Part shown: positions 21,884 to 36,697 of the stretch, piece by piece
Layout of the letters: each line of letters opens with the position of its first letter
Position numbering within the stretch: the first letter of the stretch is position 1
Source of the DNA: Gemmatimonadota bacterium
GTDB lineage: Bacteria > Gemmatimonadota > Gemmatimonadetes > Gemmatimonadales > Gemmatimonadaceae
Length of the DNA stretch: 64,000 nucleotides
Reading direction: 5' to 3'
Assembly: GCA_031127075.1 (NCBI GenBank)
Contig: JARIFA010000005.1
Location: 1-64,000, forward strand
Translations under genes and position numbers: made by a program
Notes under the pieces: model-generated
What the model was told of the DNA's origin: nothing
The model's input: the letters and a program-made list of their open reading frames with translations, nothing else
Databases searched by the model: none

Positions 21884-21956
21884 AGGTTGAAGGTTGAAGG
21901 CTGAAGGCTGAAGCGGGCCGTCGTTCGCCTTCAGCCTTCAGCCTCTAGCCTTTAGC
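21883..21956. repeat. Facing heptamer arrays forming a hairpin
   Basis: Four GGTTGAA or GGCTGAA units (21883-21913) face GCCTTCA-type units (21927-21956). A perfect 15-bp stem joins 21899-21913 with 21929-21943, with a 15-base loop. It starts at the stop codon of the lipoprotein gene and could end its transcript, although no T-run follows. The same unit recurs at 30321 and 36124. Confidence 0.85.
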
Positions 21957-22020
21957 TCATCGCCCGGCGTAGGTTCTGGCGGTCTCCCGCTGGTCCCTCC
22001 CCCCTGCGTCGAGGTTTCGG

Positions 22021-25982: not shown

Positions 25983-27215
25983 TCAGGGCTTCCAGGTCCC
26001 CTTCGCCACCGCCGGCACGAACTTCTCGATCCCCTTCCCGGGGTACGCCACGGTGCGACCGGTCTCGGCGCTCTGGTACGCCGTCATCAGCATCTTCACG
26101 ACCTCGACGCCGTCGTCGAAGGTGAGCATCGGCTGCTCCTTCCCGAGGAAGGCCCGCACGAAGTGGCGGTCCTCGCCGGTGTAGCCGTACGCGAGGTACT
26201 CCTCGGGCACGACGGGCATCACCCCCTGCTCGGCGTTCTGCTTCTCCACGAGGTCCTCCCCCGCGCGGCCGGTGACCTCACGCGAGAAGAAGAGCTGCAG
26301 GCCGCTGTCGAGGGAGTTCCACTTCATCGAGTACTCCGGGCCGAGGAGCTCCGCCGAGAGGCGCAGCCCCGCACCGACGAAGCTCCAGCTCGTCGTCGCC
26401 TCACCGATGACCTTCTGGCCGTCGGCGGTCTCGAACTCGATCATCACGCTCGCGAAGTCCTCGCTCGGCCGCTTGGTGTAGTCGGCCTGCATCGTCGCCT
26501 TGAGCTTCTTGGCGTAGGCGGGGCGAGACCACTTGAGCGAGGCGATGTGCCCGGTCACGCGGACGGGCTTCACGGTACTGAGCGGCTTCCCCGGCTCGGT
26601 GAGCAGGTGCCGCACGAGGAGCGCCGAGTGGCACATCATGTCGTTGAGCACGCCGCCGCCCTGGAGGGCGCCGTTCCAGAACCAGGGCATATGTGGCCCC
26701 GCGTGCTCCTCACCGGCACGGGCGAGGTAGGGGCGGCCGGTGGTGGCCGCGCCACGCGCCCAGAGGAGCTTCTTCCCGGCTTCGACGTGCGGCGCGAAGA
26801 GCTGGTTCTCGAGGTAGCCGGTCATCAGGCCGACACTCTTCGCGAGCCGTGCGACCTCCTTGGCCTCAGCGACGTTACGGGCGAGAGGCTTCTCGCAGGC
26901 GATGCCGCGGAGGGTGCCGCGCCCCTTCTTGATCGCGTGGACGATCTCCTCGACGTTCTCGATGCGGGCCTGATTGGGGCCGCAGAGCCAGAGGGCGTCG
27001 ATCGCTGGGTCGGCGACCATATCGCCGATGCTCTTGTAGGCCTTGGCCGCGCCGACGTCGAGCGAGCGGGCGAGCTGGGCCGCGGAGGCGGCGTTCTTCG
27101 GGTTAGGCGACCAGACACCGAGGACGTCGGCGTCACGGACGCCCTGCCAGGCCTGGATGTGGAAGCGGGTGTTGAAGCCGGAACCGATGAAGCCGACGCC
27201 AAGCTTGGGGGACAT
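25983..27215 (-). CDS. Gfo/Idh/MocA family oxidoreductase
   Basis: 410 residues, no signal peptide, so cytoplasmic. The Rossmann start is KLGVGFIGSGFNTRFHIQAW, and the catalytic EKP is present in IACEKPLARN. The second domain has GGGVLNDMMCHSALLVRHLL, where the His is the usual acid/base. Length fits the dehydrogenase branch acting on inositol or hexose derivatives. Unlike the exported member at 23962 it keeps the EKP glutamate. It is likely the cytoplasmic partner for imported oxidised sugars, though the substrate cannot be told. The start ATG is followed upstream by the GGGGTCA repeat array, with no clear ribosome site visible. Confidence 0.88.
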   Translation of the reverse strand: MSPKLGVGFIGSGFNTRFHIQAWQGVRDADVLGVWSPNPKNAASAAQLARSLDVGAAKAYKSIGDMVADPAIDALWLCGPNQARIENVEEIVHAIKKGRGTLRGIACEKPLARNVAEAKEVARLAKSVGLMTGYLENQLFAPHVEAGKKLLWARGAATTGRPYLARAGEEHAGPHMPWFWNGALQGGGVLNDMMCHSALLVRHLLTEPGKPLSTVKPVRVTGHIASLKWSRPAYAKKLKATMQADYTKRPSEDFASVMIEFETADGQKVIGEATTSWSFVGAGLRLSAELLGPEYSMKWNSLDSGLQLFFSREVTGRAGEDLVEKQNAEQGVMPVVPEEYLAYGYTGEDRHFVRAFLGKEQPMLTFDDGVEVVKMLMTAYQSAETGRTVAYPGKGIEKFVPAVAKGTWKP

Positions 27216-27354
27216 GAGGGGTCAGGGGTCAGGGGTCAGGTCGCAGGTGACGGGTCAGGCTCGACGCCACGGAGAGATAGCTGCCAGATGGGGCGCTCAC
27301 CAGCGCTCAGGCCACCGTCCGACCCGCCGATTTCTGACCCCTGGCCCCTGACCC
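27216..27354. repeat. Facing GGGGTCA and TGACCCC arrays
   Basis: Three perfect GGGGTCA heptamers at 27218-27238, followed by looser copies to 27258, face TGACCCC-type units at 27335-27354. Twenty bases pair with one mismatch (27219-27238 with 27335-27354) across a 96-base loop. The pair fills most of the gap between the start of the oxidoreductase gene and the stop of the upstream outer-membrane protein gene, both on the minus strand. Confidence 0.85.
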
Positions 27355-27369
27355 GCCGGCCCCCGGCTC

Positions 27370-28785
27370 CTAGAAGAAGAAGAACGAGAACCGGCCCCCG
27401 CTCGATCCGAGCGAGCTGAAGCGCTGGTTCACGATGGTGTTGTAGATCGACCCGAACGTGTACCGGATGCCGATGTTCGTGGTGATGCGGAACCCGGTCT
27501 GCAGGGCCTGACGCTGGAGGAGGATCTCCTCCTCGGTGTTCCCGGCGATGGGGAGGTAGATCTGGTCGCGGACCCGCGCCGCCGACCCGTTGATGTTCAG
27601 CGAGAAACCGCGTCCGAGGCGGAGGTCGGCGTTGCTCGTGAAGGTGAGGGCGTGGCGGTCGAAGTCGTGCAGGTAGTTCAGCCAGTCGAGGGAGAGGTTG
27701 AGCGTCCCCCACTGCTGCCGCGAGACGAACGAGGCCGTGAGCTGTTGCGAGAAGCGAAGCTCTGAGGTCTCACCGAATACCGTCTCGCGCTGGTAGTCGT
27801 AGTAGTTCGGTCCGATGTTGTAGAGAAAGGTGAGCTGCCGGCGCGTCTGTTCGGTCCACGGGAAGACGTTGTACTCGACGGCTGGCTGCATCCGGATCGC
27901 CGCGTCCTGGTTCAGGAAGTCCGAGTACCCCGCGCCGACCTTGAGCCCCGCCGACCAGTGGTCGGAGAGGGAGCGCACGGTCAGCGAGTTGATGTTGTAC
28001 GTCCGCTGCTCGTTGGTGACGGTGAACTCTGGGCGGGTGGCCGTGGCCGGGATGTTGAATCGCGAGGAGTTCACATTGCCGCTGACCGAGAAGTTGAGCT
28101 TCCATTCGGCGGTGTTGCGGTTGGCCGAGAACGAGAGCGAGCCGTTCACCTGCTGCTGCCGGTCCTCGGCGCGCACGAAGGTGTTGAGGTTGGTGGAGTA
28201 GGTCCAGAGGTTCCACGGGTCGCGCAGGTTCGCAGCCCCGACCTGCGGCTGGCGTTGCACGCCGAAGGGCGCGGCGTAGGCGACCTGCATTCGCGTGGCG
28301 ATCGGCGAACGCGCGACGTACCGGGTGAGCCCGAGCTTGAAGAGCCGGGCGAGCTCGCGCCGAACCTTGTCGTCCGCGTCGTTCGGCAGGGTGTTCAGCG
28401 TGAGGGTGTCGGCCATCCCCTCGAACCGGTTCCGGCCGATGAAGGTGACGGTGTACTCGCTCCCCCCACCCCCGTTCGTGAGGGCCTGGGCGAGGATGAG
28501 CACGTCCGCGTCGAATCGGTCGCGCATCCAGTTCACGAAGTTGATCTCCGTGACGAAGAAGTCGCGGTCACAGCCGCGGGCGCGCCCCTGACAGTCGAGG
28601 AAGACCCGGATGGCCTGTGACTGGAGCGTCAGCGAGTCCGGTCCCGCGGGCGTGGCGCCGGCCGCCCCGGCGGCGATGCCGGGCGGCGGCCCCCCGGGAC
28701 GGGTCGGCGCCTGGGCGGCAAGCGACGTCGTGAGGAAGACGAGGGCCAGCAGCGTGGGACGGTGCAGGAGGGACGGGGAGGGCAT
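27370..28785 (-). CDS. Conserved outer-membrane beta-barrel protein
   Basis: 471 residues. A signal peptide (TLLALVFLTTSLAAQ) precedes a soluble domain with FLDCQGRARGCDRDFFVTEINFVNWMRDRFDADVLIL and EYTVTFIGRNRF. I recall the same pattern in unnamed proteins of Bacteroidetes (inference, not checked). The rest alternates strands with aromatic ends such as WKLNFSVSGNVNSS and GFRITTNIGIRYTF, and stops with FSFFFF, a strong barrel-assembly signal. Function unknown. ATG 28785 gives the signal peptide; a start at 28824 would add 13 residues. Confidence 0.75.
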   Translation of the reverse strand: MPSPSLLHRPTLLALVFLTTSLAAQAPTRPGGPPPGIAAGAAGATPAGPDSLTLQSQAIRVFLDCQGRARGCDRDFFVTEINFVNWMRDRFDADVLILAQALTNGGGGSEYTVTFIGRNRFEGMADTLTLNTLPNDADDKVRRELARLFKLGLTRYVARSPIATRMQVAYAAPFGVQRQPQVGAANLRDPWNLWTYSTNLNTFVRAEDRQQQVNGSLSFSANRNTAEWKLNFSVSGNVNSSRFNIPATATRPEFTVTNEQRTYNINSLTVRSLSDHWSAGLKVGAGYSDFLNQDAAIRMQPAVEYNVFPWTEQTRRQLTFLYNIGPNYYDYQRETVFGETSELRFSQQLTASFVSRQQWGTLNLSLDWLNYLHDFDRHALTFTSNADLRLGRGFSLNINGSAARVRDQIYLPIAGNTEEEILLQRQALQTGFRITTNIGIRYTFGSIYNTIVNQRFSSLGSSGGRFSFFFF

Positions 28786-28879
28786 CGGTCGGGTCCGTGA
28801 AAGGGCTCGGCGAGGCAGAGGCACCCCGCAGCCTCGACAAACGTCTGAGCGGCCTCGGCGGTGCCATTCGCCTCAGTCC

Positions 28880-28914
28880 TGACCCCTGACCCCTGACCCC
28901 TGACCCCTGACCCT
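28880..28914. repeat. Tandem TGACCCC array
   Basis: Four perfect TGACCCC heptamers and a fifth ending in T (TGACCCT), placed two bases before the stop codon complement of the M20 peptidase gene. It is the same unit as at 27335 and the complement of the GGGGTCA units at 27218, 1.6 kb away. Confidence 0.9.
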
Positions 28915-28915
28915 C

Positions 28916-30349
28916 CTACCTGCCCCCCGCCAGCCGCTCCACCAACCGCCGCGTGAAGTCCACCAACCCCTCGTAGGCCGCGACCGGCACCCGCTCGTCC
29001 GTCGCGTGGGCGGTCCCGATTAGCTCCTCGGTCACGAAGAGCCCGATCACGCCGAACACGGGGACCCCGATGTTCCGCAGATAGATGCCGTCGGTGGCCC
29101 CCATCTCCATATACGGGATGACGGGCACCGCCCCCACCTGTTCGCGCACCGTCTCCTCGAGCGCGCGCTGCAGCACGGGGGTGAGGACGGAGGGCGGGCT
29201 CGGCGTCGCCGGCGTGCGCACCGTCACCTCGACACCGTCGGGCGCGACCAGTCGCCGCAGCGCAGCCACGATGGAGTCGGCCGACTCCCCGGGGACGATG
29301 CGGCAGTTCACGTTCGCCTCCGCCGCCGAGGGGATCGCGTTGGGCGCTGTCCCGCCCCGGAGCAGGGTGGAGATGCAGGTGGTGCGGAGGATCGCGTTCC
29401 CCTGCGGGGTCCGGGAGACGACCGCCTCCGCGGCCGCATCGCGCGGGTTGCGGGCGAGTGCCGCCATCGCTGTCCCGAGCGTGCCGCCGGCGAGGGGCGC
29501 GCGCCGACGCAGGTACTCGCGGGAGACGGGGGTGAGCCGTATCGGGAAGCGGTGCCGCCCGATGCGGTCGAGGGCACCGGCCAGCCGGTCGATCGGCGAC
29601 GGGCCGTCGGGGAGGGAGCTATGCCCACCGGGACCACGGGCCGTGAGCGTGACGTCGAGATAGACCTTCTCGGCGGCCTGCACGTTGAAAGCCACCGGGC
29701 GGCCGTTCACGACCTCGCCCGAGCCGCCGTCGGCGTTGATGACGAACTCCGCGCGGACGAGCTCCGGGCGGTTCGCGACGAGCCACTGGACGCCGTTGTC
29801 GCTGCCCCCCTCCTCACCGGCGGTGAGCGCGAGGATGAGATCGCGCTCGGGAGTCACCTGCCGACGCACGAGATCGAGGAACGCCGCGGCGAGTGCGGCG
29901 GCCGGCCCCTTATCGTCCTGCACGCCGCGGCCGTAGAGCATCCCGTCGCGTTCGGTGAGCACCCAGGGATTCGTCTTCCAGGCGGCCGAATCGACCTCGA
30001 CCACGTCCAGGTGCGCGAGGAAGAGGCGCGGAGCCGCGGTGCGGTCGCGCCCGCGGAGTCGCACCACGAGGTTGCGGTTCCGCTCGCCCGCACCGAGGAC
30101 CATCACATCCGCCGCGGGGACGCCGGCCGCGCGGAAGCGCGCGGCGAGCGCCTCGGCGAGCGGCGTGGTGTTCCCGTCACCGGTGGTGCGGGCGGCGATC
30201 ATCTGCGCCAGCATCGCGCGGGCGTCGGTGCGCACGATCGGGCTGTCGGCGAGGCGCGCCGGGGCGGGCTGCGCACCGAGCATGGCGGCGCACGCGTTCA
30301 CGAGCACGACCGCCGCGGCGTTCAGCCTCCAGCCTCCAGCCTTCAGCAT
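28916..30349 (-). CDS. Secreted M20 family metallopeptidase
   Basis: 477 residues. Metal and catalytic motifs of the M20/ArgE/DapE/CPG2 family are present: LAHLDVVEV (His, Asp), YGRGVQDDKG (bridging Asp), TAGEEGG (catalytic and metal Glu), INADGGSG and a C-terminal GTAHATDERV with the last His. The dimerisation domain (GGHSSLPDGPSPIDRLA) sits in between. Family members remove C-terminal or amino-acyl groups with two zinc ions. The signal peptide begins with MLKAGGWRLN, which is encoded by four copies of the intergenic heptamer repeat. It starts 4 bases after the subunit-3 gene stop, so it is in the GMC operon. Confidence 0.9.
   Translation of the reverse strand: MLKAGGWRLNAAAVVLVNACAAMLGAQPAPARLADSPIVRTDARAMLAQMIAARTTGDGNTTPLAEALAARFRAAGVPAADVMVLGAGERNRNLVVRLRGRDRTAAPRLFLAHLDVVEVDSAAWKTNPWVLTERDGMLYGRGVQDDKGPAAALAAAFLDLVRRQVTPERDLILALTAGEEGGSDNGVQWLVANRPELVRAEFVINADGGSGEVVNGRPVAFNVQAAEKVYLDVTLTARGPGGHSSLPDGPSPIDRLAGALDRIGRHRFPIRLTPVSREYLRRRAPLAGGTLGTAMAALARNPRDAAAEAVVSRTPQGNAILRTTCISTLLRGGTAPNAIPSAAEANVNCRIVPGESADSIVAALRRLVAPDGVEVTVRTPATPSPPSVLTPVLQRALEETVREQVGAVPVIPYMEMGATDGIYLRNIGVPVFGVIGLFVTEELIGTAHATDERVPVAAYEGLVDFTRRLVERLAGGR
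30321..30348. repeat. Heptamer array inside the 5' end of a gene
   Basis: Four tandem heptamers (TTCAGCC, TCCAGCC, TCCAGCC, TTCAGCA on the plus strand) match the RGCTGRA unit seen at 21883 and 36124. Here they form the start codon region and the first ten codons of the M20 peptidase. Confidence 0.85.
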
Positions 30350-30353
30350 CTGC

Positions 30354-30974
30354 TCACAGCCCCAACGTCCGCATCACCTCAGGCGGCGTCCCCTTCCACT
30401 CCGCCACCGGCCGGTTCCCGGTGTAGCCGAGATCCGCGATGCCGATGCGACTCGAGTAGAAACCGCTCGCGGTGAGGTTGCGGAGGTTGTTGAAGAACTC
30501 CACTCCCGCCTTCACGTCGGCCGCCGCGCGCTTCGGGAAGGCGATGGCATCGAGGATCTCGCGCCGCTGCGCGTCGGTCGCGCTGACGAACGACTTCCCG
30601 AAGCGCTTCCGACTCTCGGCGTGCATCCACCCGAGGCCGTTCCGCATCCAGGTGCGCATCGAGGCGTACTCGCCGAGCATGAAGTCCATGAACTCGGGGA
30701 CGCCGGCATCCGTGGCGCTCCCCGAGCGGGCGTCGCGCGGGATGAGGTAGTCGACGAGCATCCGGACGAGGCGCCATTCGTCGGGGGTGAACTGCTTCGG
30801 CACATAGGGGCGCGGGCGCGCGGGCTGCGCGGCGCCGGCCTGGGCCTGTCCCTGTGGGTCGAGGGCGGCGTGCACGTGGTCCGCCGCGCGCTCGAGCGCG
30901 TCGGGGGCGATGGCGATCCCCGCGGGGACGGCGAGGAGGTGCTGAAGCGCGTCGCGCCGGTTCATCTCGCTCAT
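30354..30974 (-). CDS. Gluconate 2-dehydrogenase subunit 3 family protein
   Basis: 206 residues. The N-terminus MSEMNRRDALQHLLAVPAG holds a twin-arginine-type signal. The domain (FTPDEWRLVRMLVDYLIPRD, ATDAGVPEFMDFMLGEY, GFYSSRIGIADLGYTGN) is the Gluconate_2-dh3 family, the small subunit that helps a GMC flavoprotein export and dock to the membrane. It follows the GMC gene with a TGATG overlap, and the pair resembles fructose, gluconate or glucoside-3-dehydrogenases. No cytochrome c subunit gene is next to it, so the electron acceptor must be encoded elsewhere. Confidence 0.9.
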   Translation of the reverse strand: MSEMNRRDALQHLLAVPAGIAIAPDALERAADHVHAALDPQGQAQAGAAQPARPRPYVPKQFTPDEWRLVRMLVDYLIPRDARSGSATDAGVPEFMDFMLGEYASMRTWMRNGLGWMHAESRKRFGKSFVSATDAQRREILDAIAFPKRAAADVKAGVEFFNNLRNLTASGFYSSRIGIADLGYTGNRPVAEWKGTPPEVMRTLGL

Positions 30975-32665
30975 CAGAGGGCCCCCGCGCGGCGCTGCCG
31001 CGTGATGTAGTCGCTGACGCGCATCGAGAGCGCCAAAATCGTCCAGGTGGGGTTCTTGTCGGCCTGCGAGACGAACGATCCGCCGTCGGCGACGAAGAGG
31101 TTGTCGCAATCCCACGCCTGGCACTGCGCGTTGAGCGCGGAGTCGCGCTCCGAGGCACCCATCCGCACGCAGCCGAGTTCATGGATGATCGCGCCGCCGT
31201 TCGCGATGCCGTAGCCCTGCTCGCGCGTCGGCATCGGGCTCCAGACCTCGCCCCCCATCTCGCCGATCAGGGCGCGGAAGGTCTCCTGCATGTGCTTCAC
31301 CTGCCGGTACTCGGTGTCGCGCCACTCCCAGTGGAAGCGGAGCACCGGGATCCCCCACTTGTCCTTCACCTCGGGGTCGAGCTCGCAGTACGACTTCTCG
31401 TTCGGGATCATCTCGCCGCGGCCGGAGAAGCCGACCGTCGCGCCCCAGTAGCGCCGGTACTGCGCCTTGAGGTCCGCGCCGTAGCCACCCCCCTCGGGAT
31501 AGCTCTGGATGCCGCCCATGAAGCCGTACGACGGCATCCCGAGGCCGCCCCACACCTCGATGTGATAGCCGCGCGGGAAGTCGAGTTTGGCGTTGTCGAG
31601 CCACCACGGCATGTAGATGTGCCCGCCGCCGACGCCGTCGGCGTTGTGGGGCGGCACGTCGACCAGGCGCGGGATGAACCCCGCCACGTCGGTACCGGTG
31701 GTGTCGGTTAGGTACTTCCCGACGACGCCGCTCGCGTTGGCGAGGCCGTTCGGGTGTCGCGTCGACTTCGAGTTGAGCAGGATGCGCGCCGATTCACAGG
31801 CGCTCGCGGCGAGCACGACGATGCGCGCACGCACCTCGCGATCCTCACCGGTGCGCTTGTCGATGTACGAGACGCCTGTCGCGCGCCCATCGGGCCCTGT
31901 CATCACCTCGCGCGCCATCGCATCGGTGATGAGCGTGAGGCGCCCGGTGCGCATCGCGGGGAAGATCAGGACGTTCGGCGACGAGAAGTTGGAGTTCGTC
32001 ATGCAGCCGCGGTTGCACTGCCCGCAGTAGTGGCAGGGGGCGCGGCCGTTGAGCGGCTTGGTGATGACCGAGAGGCGGGCCGGGATGCAGGTGACCCCCA
32101 TCCGGTCGCTCGTCTGCTTGACCAGGTGCTCGTAGTAGCGGGGCGCCGGCGCGGGATGGAAGATCCCATCCGGGTGGTTCGGGAGGTTCTCGACGCTTCC
32201 GAAGATCCCGATGAGTCGGTCGACTTCGTCGTACCAGGGCTTGAGGTCGTCGTAGGAGATCGGCCAGTCATCCCCGAGACCGTCGCGGGTCTTGCCGCGG
32301 AAATCGTCGGGGCCAAAGCGGAGCGAGATGCGGCCCCAGTGGTTCGTGCGGCCGCCGAGCATCCGGCCGCGCCACCAGTCGAACTTCGTCCCCTCGGCCT
32401 TGGTGTACGGCTCGCCGGGGATGCTCCACCCGCCGATGCAGGCGTCCCACTCGCCGAACGGTCGGTCCGGCGTCGAGGCCCCTCGACGCGGCGAGTCGTA
32501 CGGCATCTTGAGCATCGCCGAGTCCTTCGTGTTGTCCCACATCCCGCCGGCCTCGAGGAGCACCACGCGGGCGCCGGCCTTGGTCAGCTGGTAGGCGGCC
32601 ATGCCGCCGCCGGCGCCGGAGCCGACGATGGCGACGTCATAGAGGTCGTTGCGGGGCTGGGACAT
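30974..32665 (-). CDS. GMC oxidoreductase, sugar (glucoside-3-) dehydrogenase-like large subunit
   Basis: 563 residues. The FAD-binding N-terminus is YDVAIVGSGAGGGMAAYQLT with VVLLEAGG; GRTNHWGRIS follows. HYCGQCNRGCMTNSN is a cysteine cluster typical of the glucoside 3-dehydrogenase/gluconate dehydrogenase branch. The C-terminus HELGCVRMG and ADKNPTWTILAL carries the active-site region. It lacks a signal peptide and probably is exported in complex with the Tat-signal small subunit encoded next to it. Such enzymes oxidise C3 of glycosides, or gluconate; together with DUF1080 and Gfo/Idh/MocA genes nearby the C3 role is favoured. Confidence 0.9.
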   Translation of the reverse strand: MSQPRNDLYDVAIVGSGAGGGMAAYQLTKAGARVVLLEAGGMWDNTKDSAMLKMPYDSPRRGASTPDRPFGEWDACIGGWSIPGEPYTKAEGTKFDWWRGRMLGGRTNHWGRISLRFGPDDFRGKTRDGLGDDWPISYDDLKPWYDEVDRLIGIFGSVENLPNHPDGIFHPAPAPRYYEHLVKQTSDRMGVTCIPARLSVITKPLNGRAPCHYCGQCNRGCMTNSNFSSPNVLIFPAMRTGRLTLITDAMAREVMTGPDGRATGVSYIDKRTGEDREVRARIVVLAASACESARILLNSKSTRHPNGLANASGVVGKYLTDTTGTDVAGFIPRLVDVPPHNADGVGGGHIYMPWWLDNAKLDFPRGYHIEVWGGLGMPSYGFMGGIQSYPEGGGYGADLKAQYRRYWGATVGFSGRGEMIPNEKSYCELDPEVKDKWGIPVLRFHWEWRDTEYRQVKHMQETFRALIGEMGGEVWSPMPTREQGYGIANGGAIIHELGCVRMGASERDSALNAQCQAWDCDNLFVADGGSFVSQADKNPTWTILALSMRVSDYITRQRRAGAL

Positions 32666-33341: not shown

Positions 33342-34229
33342 TTACAATCCCACCGTGCGTAGGTGCGCGCGCCCGGCGGCCGCCGTGGCCCAGGCGTCCG
33401 CCGGGTTGTCGTGCTCCACGTAGACGTTCGTCACGCGACCCGCGCGCGCGGCGGTCAGGATGGCGCGCCAGTCCATCACGCCGGCGCCGACATCACGCTG
33501 CTCGTGCGCCGGTCCACCTGCGGAATCCTTCAGGTGGAGCATCGTGATGCGGTCGGCGTGCCGACGCAGCAGGGCGACGGGATCCTTCCCCGCCTTGAAC
33601 GCCCAGTAGCAGTCGAGCTCGAAATCGACGACCGCGGGATCGGTCTCCGCGAGGAAGAGCTCGACGCGGTCGCTCCCGCCCAGTGGCTGGAACTCGTAGT
33701 CGTGGTTGTGATAGCTCGTGCGGATGCCGGCGCTTCGGCCCGCGCGCCCCGCCTCGGTGATCACGCCCGCGGTGCGCTTCCAGGCGTCGAGCGTGCCGTT
33801 CTCGGCCGCGGTCGTCGACGCGACGATCAGCGTGCCGTGCCCCATCGCGGCGGCCGTCTCGAGCGTGCGCCCGAGGCGGTCGGGCTGCAGCGCATCGAGG
33901 CCGAAGTGCGCGGAGGGCGCGCGGAGGCCGTTGGCCTGCAGCGCCGCGCGGAGCTGCGCCGGCGTGCGGCCCCATTCGCCCCACCATTCGATCTCGGTGA
34001 AGCCGAGCGCGGCGATCCGTGCGAGCGTCCGCTCCGGGTCCTGTCGCATCTGGTCGCGTAGCATGTAGAGCTGCACGCCGACACCGTGCAGGGCCGCGGT
34101 CGCGGGGGCGGTGTCCGTCTCCGGACGGGTCGCGGCGGTGCCGTCGAATGCGTGCGTCATACGGGTGGCGAGTCCGGGGCCGAGGGCGAGGGCACCGGTG
34201 GCGAGGAGGAAGTCGCGACGGGAGGTCAT
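33342..34229 (-). CDS. Tat-exported sugar phosphate isomerase/epimerase-like TIM barrel
   Basis: 295 residues. A twin-arginine signal (SRRDFLLATGALALGPG) precedes an AP-endonuclease-2/xylose-isomerase-like TIM barrel: VGVQLYMLRDQM, FTEIEWWGEWGRTP, RTSYHNHDYEFQPLG, DFELDCYWAFKAG and MLHLKDSAGG hold the His, Glu and Asp metal ligands. Exported members often sit in 3-keto-sugar loci, where they may interconvert or eliminate oxidised glycosides. This gene is at the edge of that region. It lies 25 bases upstream of (that is, after) the acyltransferase stop. Confidence 0.85.
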   Translation of the reverse strand: MTSRRDFLLATGALALGPGLATRMTHAFDGTAATRPETDTAPATAALHGVGVQLYMLRDQMRQDPERTLARIAALGFTEIEWWGEWGRTPAQLRAALQANGLRAPSAHFGLDALQPDRLGRTLETAAAMGHGTLIVASTTAAENGTLDAWKRTAGVITEAGRAGRSAGIRTSYHNHDYEFQPLGGSDRVELFLAETDPAVVDFELDCYWAFKAGKDPVALLRRHADRITMLHLKDSAGGPAHEQRDVGAGVMDWRAILTAARAGRVTNVYVEHDNPADAWATAAAGRAHLRTVGL

Positions 34230-34254
34230 TCGGGAAGAATGCAAGGCGGCGGGA

Positions 34255-34899
34255 TCAGGCGCGAGGCGGCGCACCGCCGCCGAGGTACTGCGCCGGGAAC
34301 TTCGCCATCGACGGCCGATAGAGCGCCTGCAACGCCGCGACGTCGCGGTCCAGATTGCCTGTGACGGTGAAGAGCGGATGGAAGACGATCGTCTTGCGTG
34401 CGTAGTCGAACCCAATCGGGAGGATCGGCAGCTGTCCCCGCTCGGCGATCCGATAGAACCCCGATTTCCAGCGCGTCGTCAGGCGGCGCGTCCCCTCAGG
34501 GGAGAGCACGATCAGCGCGCCGGGATGCGTCTGCACGTGGCGGACGGTCTCGCCGACCACGTCACCGGCGGCGGCACGGTCGACGGGGACGCCGCCGAGG
34601 AAGCGCATCAGCACGCCGAGCGGGAAGCGGAAGAGCGTGTGCTTGCCGAGGAACGTGCCGCGGATACCGAGCGCGTACATCGCCATCACCCCGATCGGGA
34701 AGTCCCAGTTGGAGGTGTGCGGCGCCACGATGAGCACGCACTTCGGGACATCGGGGAACGGGCCTTCGAAGCGCCAGCCGATGAGGCGCATCCCGGTGGT
34801 CGCGAGCCACGTGGTGAACGTGTTCCCGCGGCGTGGGACCTGCGCGCCGATGGCGGGCACGTTCACCCGCCCGCCGTGGGCCGGCGTGGCGGGGGTCAC
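34255..34899 (-). CDS. 1-acylglycerol-3-phosphate acyltransferase-like protein
   Basis: 214 residues. The PlsC-type HX4D motif is in APHTSNWDFPIG, and the second motif is SPEGTRR, both parts of the acyltransferase active site. The family moves acyl chains to lysophospholipids or related acceptors at the inner membrane. The GTG start at 34899 is supported by a 4-base GTGA overlap with the stop of the MFS gene just upstream; a longer upstream frame would read through that gene. The two genes are probably cotranscribed. Confidence 0.88.
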   Translation of the reverse strand: MTPATPAHGGRVNVPAIGAQVPRRGNTFTTWLATTGMRLIGWRFEGPFPDVPKCVLIVAPHTSNWDFPIGVMAMYALGIRGTFLGKHTLFRFPLGVLMRFLGGVPVDRAAAGDVVGETVRHVQTHPGALIVLSPEGTRRLTTRWKSGFYRIAERGQLPILPIGFDYARKTIVFHPLFTVTGNLDRDVAALQALYRPSMAKFPAQYLGGGAPPRA

Positions 34900-36104
34900 C
34901 GCGCCGCCTCCCGGCGCCAGCGCGCGTCGAGGCCGCCGAGGATGCGCGCGCTCAGGAGGCCGAGCGCGACGAGTGTGATCCCGACCGAGGCGAAGATCGT
35001 CGACCAGCGCGGGGTGCCGGCAGCGTCCCGCACCGTCTCGACGAGGAGCCCGCCGACCACCGGGCCGGCGAGGAAGCCGAACGATCCCGCCACCTGGAAG
35101 GCGCCGAAGAGCCCGTCGCCCGCCCCGCGCCGCGCGAACTCGCTCACGAGCACGAGGCTCGGCGAGAACATCAGCGCGCTGAGCGTGCCGGAGAGCACCA
35201 TCGCCACCGGGAGCCAGGCGAGGGGGAAGAGGCCATACGTCGCATACACGAGGCCGAAGCCGACGTTGCCGATGATGAGGAGCCGGAACCAGCCGAGGCG
35301 GTCGGCGAGTCGTCCGGCCGGCCAGTTCAGCAGCGCGAAGGGGAGGAGGAAGAGCCCCATCAGCATCCCGCGCTCGCGCACCCCCACGCCGTGCTGCTCG
35401 GCGAGGAAGATCGTGAAGGAGGAGGAGAAGACGCCGATGAGGAAGCGGTCGGCGAATCCGTAGGCGAGGGGCATCCAGCTCGCGAGATCGGAGCGGTCCC
35501 ACTGGTACCGGCTCGGCGCGGCGGGAGAGGCCGGCGCGCTGGACTCGGCGGCCGTCGGGACGCCGATGGCCGCGAGCGCGGCGACGCCGAGGAGGACCAT
35601 CCCCACCGGATAGACGAGGAGGGGATCGCGGGCGGCGAGGATGCCGCCGGTCGGGAGCCCGACGCCGACGCCGAACATCAGGGCGGTCGCGACGAGGCCG
35701 AGGGAGGCGCCGCGGCGAGCACCGCCGGCCCGGTTAGCCGCGATCATCAGGAAGGTGAGGGCGGGGAGGTGCGCGAGGCCGTCGAGCGCGCGCCAGGCGA
35801 AGAGGGCGGGGAGGGACTCGGCGCGCCACATCCCGAGGAAGGCGATCGCGTCGAGGGCGAGGAGGGCGATGACCCACCGACGGGTGGTGCCGAGCCGGCG
35901 GTGCCACCGCATCGCGAACGGGACCGCGATGATGCCGGCGAGTTGATTGAGCGCGACGAAGAGGTGCGCGTGGAACCGGGTCCCCCCGTGGCGGTCGACG
36001 ACCAGCTCGGTCAGCGCCGGGACCAGCAGGGTCAGCGGGACCAGGGTCAGGAAGGTCGCGATGGCGATCGGGGCCAGGGCGGCCGGCCGGGGCGGGACGG
36101 GCAT
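34896..36104 (-). CDS. MFS transporter
   Basis: 402 residues with 12 predicted membrane helices in two halves separated by a short loop (SAPASPAAPSRYQWD). The usual MFS loop residues are seen after helix 2 (MRWHRRLGTTRRW) and in the second half (GRLADRLGWFR). Substrate cannot be told. It overlaps the acyltransferase start and may serve lipid or drug export. A heptamer-repeat hairpin lies just upstream of its ATG. Confidence 0.85.
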   Translation of the reverse strand: MPVPPRPAALAPIAIATFLTLVPLTLLVPALTELVVDRHGGTRFHAHLFVALNQLAGIIAVPFAMRWHRRLGTTRRWVIALLALDAIAFLGMWRAESLPALFAWRALDGLAHLPALTFLMIAANRAGGARRGASLGLVATALMFGVGVGLPTGGILAARDPLLVYPVGMVLLGVAALAAIGVPTAAESSAPASPAAPSRYQWDRSDLASWMPLAYGFADRFLIGVFSSSFTIFLAEQHGVGVRERGMLMGLFLLPFALLNWPAGRLADRLGWFRLLIIGNVGFGLVYATYGLFPLAWLPVAMVLSGTLSALMFSPSLVLVSEFARRGAGDGLFGAFQVAGSFGFLAGPVVGGLLVETVRDAAGTPRWSTIFASVGITLVALGLLSARILGGLDARWRREAAR

Positions 36105-36123
36105 CAGGGGAATCTAGCGGGGG

Positions 36124-36246
36124 GCTGGAGGCTCAATGCTGGAAGCTGAAAGCTGGATGCTGAAAGCTGGAAGCTGGGGCCCCCGTGACACACCTTTCTT
36201 GCGTCGTTCAGCTTTCAGCTTTCTGCCTCCAGCCTTTAGCCTTTCG
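36124..36246. repeat. Facing RGCTGRA heptamer arrays
   Basis: Seven or so units of AGCTGAA, AGCTGGA, GGCTGGA and similar (36124-36178) face TTCAGCT, CCAGCCT-type units at 36207-36246. Thirteen bases pair perfectly (36143-36155 with 36209-36221). It fills the gap between the divergent MFS and lipoprotein genes, so it sits at two promoters rather than at gene ends. Confidence 0.85.
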
Positions 36247-36253
36247 CCTCCCT

Positions 36254-36697
36254 ATGCGCTCCCTCCTCCCGATCGCCCTCCTCCTGACCGCCTGCCAGAC
36301 CACGCGGTCCACCTCGACGACCATCACCGGGACGCCGGAGCTGCGGCCCGCTTCCGCGCCGGCGGGGGCCACCGTCGCGGCCGCGTCTCCCGCGGCGCCG
36401 GTCGTCCAGCCCGCCGGGAAGTGGCTCGTCACCCTCTCGGCGCAGGGGAGCCCGATGGACGTGCAGGTCGAGCTGATCCGGCTCGACGATGGCTCGTGGA
36501 CGGGCACGGTGACCAGCGCCGCCTTCCCGCCCTTCCCGGTCTCCAAGGCCGTCCTGACGGGGAACAAGATGGTCGCGACGCTCGCCATCCCGACGGGCGA
36601 CACGGCGACGATGACGCTCGAGTTCGACGGGGACACCGTCACCGGCGAGTGGGCGATGCCGGGCGACGGCTCGCGGCTCAGCGGGAAGCGCCGCTGA
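36254..36697 (+). CDS. Small lipoprotein of unknown function
   Basis: 147 residues. MRSLLPIALLLTAC is a short signal with lipobox (LLTAC, Cys14), then a Thr/Ser- and Ala/Pro-rich linker. The body GKWLVTLSAQGSPMDVQVELI, DDGSWTGTVTSAAFP, KMVATLAIPTGDTATMTLEF and GDTVTGEWAMPGDGSRLSGKR looks like repeated strands of a small beta-sandwich, similar to that seen in many secreted hypothetical proteins. I do not recognise a named family. Confidence 0.75.
   Translation: MRSLLPIALLLTACQTTRSTSTTITGTPELRPASAPAGATVAAASPAAPVVQPAGKWLVTLSAQGSPMDVQVELIRLDDGSWTGTVTSAAFPPFPVSKAVLTGNKMVATLAIPTGDTATMTLEFDGDTVTGEWAMPGDGSRLSGKRR

Follow-up and report, generated by a model that had tools for sequence, protein, structure and literature searches.

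A heptamer repeat array at the 5' end of an M20 peptidase gene in a Gemmatimonadota bacterium and its probable role as gene start

The heptamer array and its surrounding genes

The stretch analyzed here (the window) comprises 64,000 nucleotides of contig JARIFA010000005.1 of a Gemmatimonadota bacterium (GCA_031127075.1). On its minus strand, genes for a GMC oxidoreductase, a Gluconate_2-dh3-family protein and an M20 peptidase follow one another, and an array of four heptamers of the RGCTGRA type lies at the start of the peptidase gene (Table 1). The M20 open reading frame (ORF) matched Pfam PF01546 with an E value of 1.3e-29. The stop codon of the GMC oxidoreductase gene overlaps the start of the Gluconate_2-dh3-family gene (TGATG), whose protein, as taken from the sequence, begins MSEMNRR.

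On the minus strand the array units read TGCTGAA, GGCTGGA, GGCTGGA and GGCTGAA. Units 2 to 4 are exact RGCTGRA, giving three perfect units of four, while unit 1 deviates by a T in first place. From position 30349 to 30320 the same strand reads ATG CTG AAG GCT GGA GGC TGG AGG CTG AAC, which corresponds to MLKAGGWRLN; the array itself leaves out the A of the ATG and the final base of the asparagine codon. The first-pass annotation, in which four such heptamers gave the start codon region and the first ten residues of the peptidase, thus agreed with the sequence and with the PF01546 match, apart from the T of unit 1. The context is GGGGCTG TGA GCAG ATG CTG AAG...AAC GCC, where TGA is the stop codon of the Gluconate_2-dh3-family gene.

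In the window, a two-unit pattern with at most one mismatch had 17 matches where 0.13 were expected, and the largest number in any shuffle was 1. The whole genome contained 78 exact two-unit matches (34+44) on 20 contigs, compared to 0 for the backwards pattern. A chance origin of the repeat pattern was therefore dismissed, and the array is real. It is best regarded as belonging to the upstream gene, an ordinary array following its stop, which has fallen on the start of the next gene because no spacer separates the two. RNA folding of positions 30300-30370, which contain this single array, was no better than that of shuffled sequences (z +0.59), and a hairpin role for it was dropped. A scan for promoters and terminators around the junction found nothing.

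Table 1. Positions of the genes, heptamer arrays and related elements in the window (family A, RGCTGRA; family B, GGGTCAG)
Feature	Position	Strand	Basis
Heptamer array, family A, 4 units, 5 nt past upstream stop	30321-30348	-	Sequence, pattern counts
Putative start codon ATG of the M20 gene; last two bases are the array's first two	30347-30349	-	In-frame start codon list
M20 peptidase gene, 477 aa, apparent signal peptide	28916-30349	-	Pfam PF01546, PF07687; signal peptide from charge and hydropathy
Upstream gene, Gluconate_2-dh3 family, 206 aa; stop at 30354-30356	30354-30974	-	Pfam PF13618
GMC oxidoreductase gene, first of three same-strand neighbours	30974-32665	-	Pfam PF05199, PF00732
GTG AGC AGA TGC TGA, possibly what remains of an overlapping GTGA start	30343-30357	-	Sequence; compare G014, G011
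Family B array (5 units of GGGTCAG) directly following the M20 stop; family A in G001	28879-28913	-	
Family B array, left arm of inward pair	27219-27239	+	
Family B array, right arm of inward pair; family A at the G001 junction	27334-27354	-	
Family A array, left arm of inward pair; G001 site nearly empty	21885-21912	+	
Family A array, right arm of inward pair	21930-21957	-	
Family A array, left arm; family B-like repeats at the G001 junction	36123-36178	+	
Family A array, right arm	36207-36241	-	

Orthologous junctions in related genomes

The M20 protein was searched in 61 genomes and in 17 genomes of the genus, including that of the window (G000) and its sister genome (G001). Nine of the 17 gave a match at E values of at most 1e-125. 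With G004, where the closer partial match had an E value of 7.4e-113, the set came to ten genomes. The upstream gene lay beside the M20 gene in eight of these (G000, G001, G012, G013, G004, G014, G002 and G011). G016 and G006, in which it was not beside the M20 gene in the stretch examined, were excluded from the junction count.

The array was absent from the junction in all six same-genus outgroups with the same gene order. In G012 and G013 the junction is TGATG, with the M20 start touching or overlapping the upstream stop; in G014, G011 and G002 the two codons overlap as GTGA; and in G004 (TGATCGCCATG) the M20 start lies 5 nt beyond the upstream stop. When the N-termini were aligned, as the first-pass annotation had proposed, these six orthologues showed ordinary signal-peptide-like N-termini with no resemblance to MLKAGGWRLN. 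The GTGAGC over the upstream stop is kept in the window as in G014 and G011, but its frame there is closed by a stop within the first array unit. The M20 orthologue of G013 (L037 1115-2307) matched in two frames (query residues 16-134 and 189-474) and may be a broken gene or contain a sequence error.

Among the compared orthologues, only that of G001 shares both the N-terminus and the array, with four units in the same frame. Its junction consists of the stop codon TAA, GG, and then GTG CTG AAG GAT GGA GGC TGG AAG CTG AAA GCC. Between the array and the hydrophobic core, G001 carries 90 bp, in frame, that are absent from the window. An orthologue with this N-terminus in a genome free of the repeat elsewhere would have spoken against an origin from the array; the one genome sharing it, G001, had 51 exact two-unit matches, the M20 site included. 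In a FastTree tree of the M20 proteins G000 and G001 were joined (0.995) within a clade (1.000) that also held G004, G012 and G013. The branching among these three was weak (0.384), and all of them are without the array. A single array gain on the G000/G001 branch would be the simplest history.

Probable translation of the array

The M20 start cannot be far upstream of the ATG, as the frame is closed by a TGA nine codons before it. Up to residue 60, in-frame ATG, GTG or TTG codons occur at residues 1, 15, 17, 23, 39, 46 and 50, the first four being ATG, GTG, GTG and ATG. Signal peptides were assessed from counts of charge and hydropathy rather than with a trained predictor. With a start at ATG1 the most hydrophobic window began at residue 14 (2.41) and was preceded by a net charge of +2. 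A start at GTG15 left zero charge before the core and a lower hydropathy (1.78 vs 2.41), and starts at 17 or 23 gave a best hydropathy window of 1.19, again with zero net charge before the core. For the nine N-termini compared, with the start as taken, the net charge before the core ranged from +1 to +7, and it was +1 to +3 in the orthologues of G012, G013, G004, G014, G002, G011 and G006. Since the other in-frame starts leave no charged n-region, the array probably supplies both the start codon and the charged n-region of the export signal, as judged from reading frame and signal-peptide logic.

The frame is shared by the two carriers. From the start triplet to a shared anchor in the signal core the distance is 45 nt in the window and 135 nt in G001 (difference 90), and to a conserved block further on it is 159 nt and 246 nt (difference 87). 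Both differences are multiples of 3, one such match having a 1-in-3 chance. The spacing from stop to start is 4 nt in the window and 2 nt in G001. A GRR motif precedes the core in G001, as in G013, and none is present in the window, where K3 and R8, both encoded by the array, seem to fill its role.

Several observations weigh against translation from the array. In G001 a start in the array would leave 36 residues before the core, which is unusually long, and another GTG occurs 16 codons further upstream in the same frame. G000 and G001 differ at three of the first ten codons following the start, and because all three differences change the residue, the array peptide appears to carry no sign of purifying selection beyond its charge and open frame. 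Our own codon-score start caller chose residue 15, a good Shine-Dalgarno sequence was not seen by eye, and initiation was assumed to occur by reinitiation after the nearby stop.

Origin of the array and alternative explanations

We consider it likely that the array arose or was inserted in the common ancestor of G000 and G001 and then became the M20 start and n-region. According to this history, a lineage-specific heptamer array would have arisen, or been inserted, downstream of the Gluconate_2-dh3-family stop codon, and since the M20 gene had begun on or beside that stop, the array would have fallen on the M20 5' end. Its first triplet would have become the start codon, ATG in the window and GTG in G001. 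The 90 bp found in G001 would later have been lost from the window lineage, most simply by an in-frame deletion, after which K3 and R8 would serve as the positive n-region of the signal peptide. The suggestion in the first-pass annotation that a repeat at the 5' end had become coding is supported by the six array-free orthologous junctions; that the array is translated, and that the 90-bp change was a loss, we infer from the reading frame and the signal-peptide comparison.

The array could instead be an ordinary untranslated after-stop array, with the true start at GTG15 or GTG17 and the ATG an accident of the open frame. This is rather improbable. It would agree with the trimming of the start to residue 15 by codon scoring and with the position of most sampled arrays between genes, and because four units put few TGR codons in any frame, the openness of the frame is weak evidence against it. 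However, a protein starting at residue 15 (VLVNACAAMLGA) would have no positive n-region, starts at 17 or 23 would leave no core of comparable hydropathy, and the signal-peptide-like N-termini of the six outgroup orthologues begin at or beside the upstream stop.

Heptanucleotide contingency loci are short repeats at the 5' ends of genes whose changes in length can shift the reading frame. The M20 gene might likewise be phase-variable, with the gain or loss of one unit turning it off or on: the unit length of 7 is not a multiple of 3, the putative start precedes the array, and unit counts vary between G000 and G001 at other junctions. Unlike such loci, the array has just four imperfect units, with four in the same frame in both genomes and no evidence of length variation at the M20 site, and Rehm et al. 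(PMC4692102) considered phase variation unlikely for analogous repeats; we therefore regard this explanation as very unlikely. An assembly artefact of a metagenome bin deserves hardly any weight. The G000 assembly is fragmented (98 contigs, 81.5% complete), but in the separate assembly of G001 the same junction also contains the array, and details of its flanks differ. Translation from an array gained on the G000/G001 branch remains our preferred explanation.

Distribution of the array families

Exact two-unit matches numbered 20 in G004. Three exact tandem units were found in 9 of 394 sampled genomes of the class, a sample that did not contain G004, with 37 three-unit matches in G000, 23 in G001, 35 in G012 and at most 3 in each of the other six positive genomes. 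Exact family B pairs were present in 8 of 31 genomes. They also occurred in the order-level relatives G038 (C17 and C78) and G044 (C71 and C212), which had none or one exact family A pair.

We collected 97 arrays of at least three units, leaving two-unit arrays uncounted, from loci of G000 (22 and the window), G001 (18) and G012 (20 and L032). The G000 loci were all of its two-unit sites; those of G001 were without C7, C16, C27, C53 and C59, and those of G012 without C32 and further places. Family A accounted for 91 arrays and family B for 6, but as the loci were mostly chosen for family A arrays, densities are not genome-wide and family B is under-sampled. Genes were called by our simple codon score.

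Ninety-five arrays lay between genes, counting those whose midpoint was no more than 30 nt within a gene, and the two at locus edges were not placed. The G-rich strand pointed away from the nearer gene in 77 of the 95 (31/37 in G000, 21/21 in G001 and 25/37, the weakest, in G012). At most 10 nt separated the array from a gene in 57 of the 95, which was counted in favour of the preferred history of the M20 array. Four units was the commonest count in each genome (13/37, 8/23 and 19/37 in G000, G001 and G012). The earlier description of the repeat as purely intergenic outside the M20 site was too strong: in 17 of the 97 arrays the repeat reaches over a neighbouring gene's stop codon, and in 12 of these it also contains 1-5 codons of that gene. 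Arrays at L059 3204-3238, L075 632-652 and L095 2540-2567 encode the last residues of genes and their TGA stops; L059 (G000) and L075 (G001) are the same junction.

An in-frame start codon inside an array was found at five places in the 97 arrays. Two of these places are the window site and its G001 orthologue; the remaining three are TTG candidates, two of them antisense. No further convincing case of a gene start derived from an array was seen in the sample, and we rejected the generalization that arrays frequently form gene starts. The three inward pairs of the window fold as strong RNA hairpins (21885-21957, z -8.2; 36123-36241, z -5.7; 27219-27354, z -3.9). An Rfam scan of the window returned two tRNAs only, and the arrays matched no family at gathering thresholds.

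Turnover of arrays between genomes

Junctions were then compared between genomes, with two or more units counted as an array and a sample biased to array-bearing loci. G000 and G001 shared 75 orthologous junctions in the fetched loci, 58 of which were without an array in either genome. The 17 array-bearing junctions comprised 10 with family A in both, 4 at which just one genome has an array, and 3 with different families. In these last three the families of the window and G001 were B and A (27215-27370), B and A (28785-28916), and A and B (36104-36254). Among 18 junctions of G000 and G012, 13 were without arrays, 2 had family A in both and 3 had an array in one only. These results suggest that arrays appear, disappear and switch unit between flanking genes that stay in place.

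At the two paired junctions that had switched, both arms seem changed, the second G001 arm having been recognized by eye where the script found one. At window positions 34229-34255 two genes are separated by about 25 bp; between their G001 counterparts (C2 ~87372-87472) lies a family B array that looks by eye like an inverted pair. More speculatively, an active process might write inward-facing arrays at gene ends and swap the unit family at a junction, both arms together; one such event would have given a secreted peptidase its new start and n-region, and the process would be a recurrent source of new protein ends. We regard so broad a scheme as doubtful.

Comparison with known heptamer repeats

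Rehm et al. 2015 (PMC4692102) describe GGGNATC heptamers of Xanthomonas and Nostoc with a four-unit mode and a function left open; 83% of the Xcc repeats were in the same context in Xac, and 16% were absent or strongly mutated. The arrays studied here resemble these in their tandem 7-base units dispersed over the genome, the four-unit mode, the mostly intergenic placement near ORFs, the G-rich strand directed away from the nearer gene, the convergent pairs and the differences between relatives. Their units, RGCTGRA and GGGTCAG, differ, so that the layout is the same but not the sequence family. Family B contains GGGG runs, while RGCTGRA has at most GG tracts and, unlike the GGGNATC unit, which is able to form a three-tier G-quadruplex, has no GGG tract. 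Such a quadruplex would thus not be the reason why four units are common. The unit-family switch at three junctions has no counterpart in the consulted sections of that paper.

According to MacGregor 2015 (PMC4679880), the TAACTGA direct repeats of Beggiatoaceae lie mainly between genes near start codons, with some in coding ends, one of them close to where a corrinoid ABC permease begins. They are likewise heptamer direct repeats reaching into coding ends, but they have another unit, lie mostly just upstream of starts and contain a stop in every reading frame of the forward units. No title or abstract opening concerning these arrays was returned by literature searches on repeats of Gemmatimonadetes or Gemmatimonadota and on intergenic repeats of heptameric type. 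In the main text of a phylum-wide Gemmatimonadota study (PMC10581226), a word search found no word beginning with 'repeat' or 'heptamer'. The RGCTGRA and GGGTCAG arrays are therefore newly found relatives of a known heptamer layout, with a case of apparently becoming a gene start.

A Xanthomonas-like heptamer layout is thereby found in another phylum, with a main unit whose lack of a GGG tract weakens the quadruplex explanation of the four-unit preference, and with sister genomes that carry different unit families at the same junctions. The M20 junction is a well-placed case, combining array-free outgroups, one shared gain and a subsequent in-frame difference of 90 bp between the genomes that carry the array. 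Non-coding repeat DNA has apparently come here to encode the N-terminal residues of a conserved enzyme that is probably exported.
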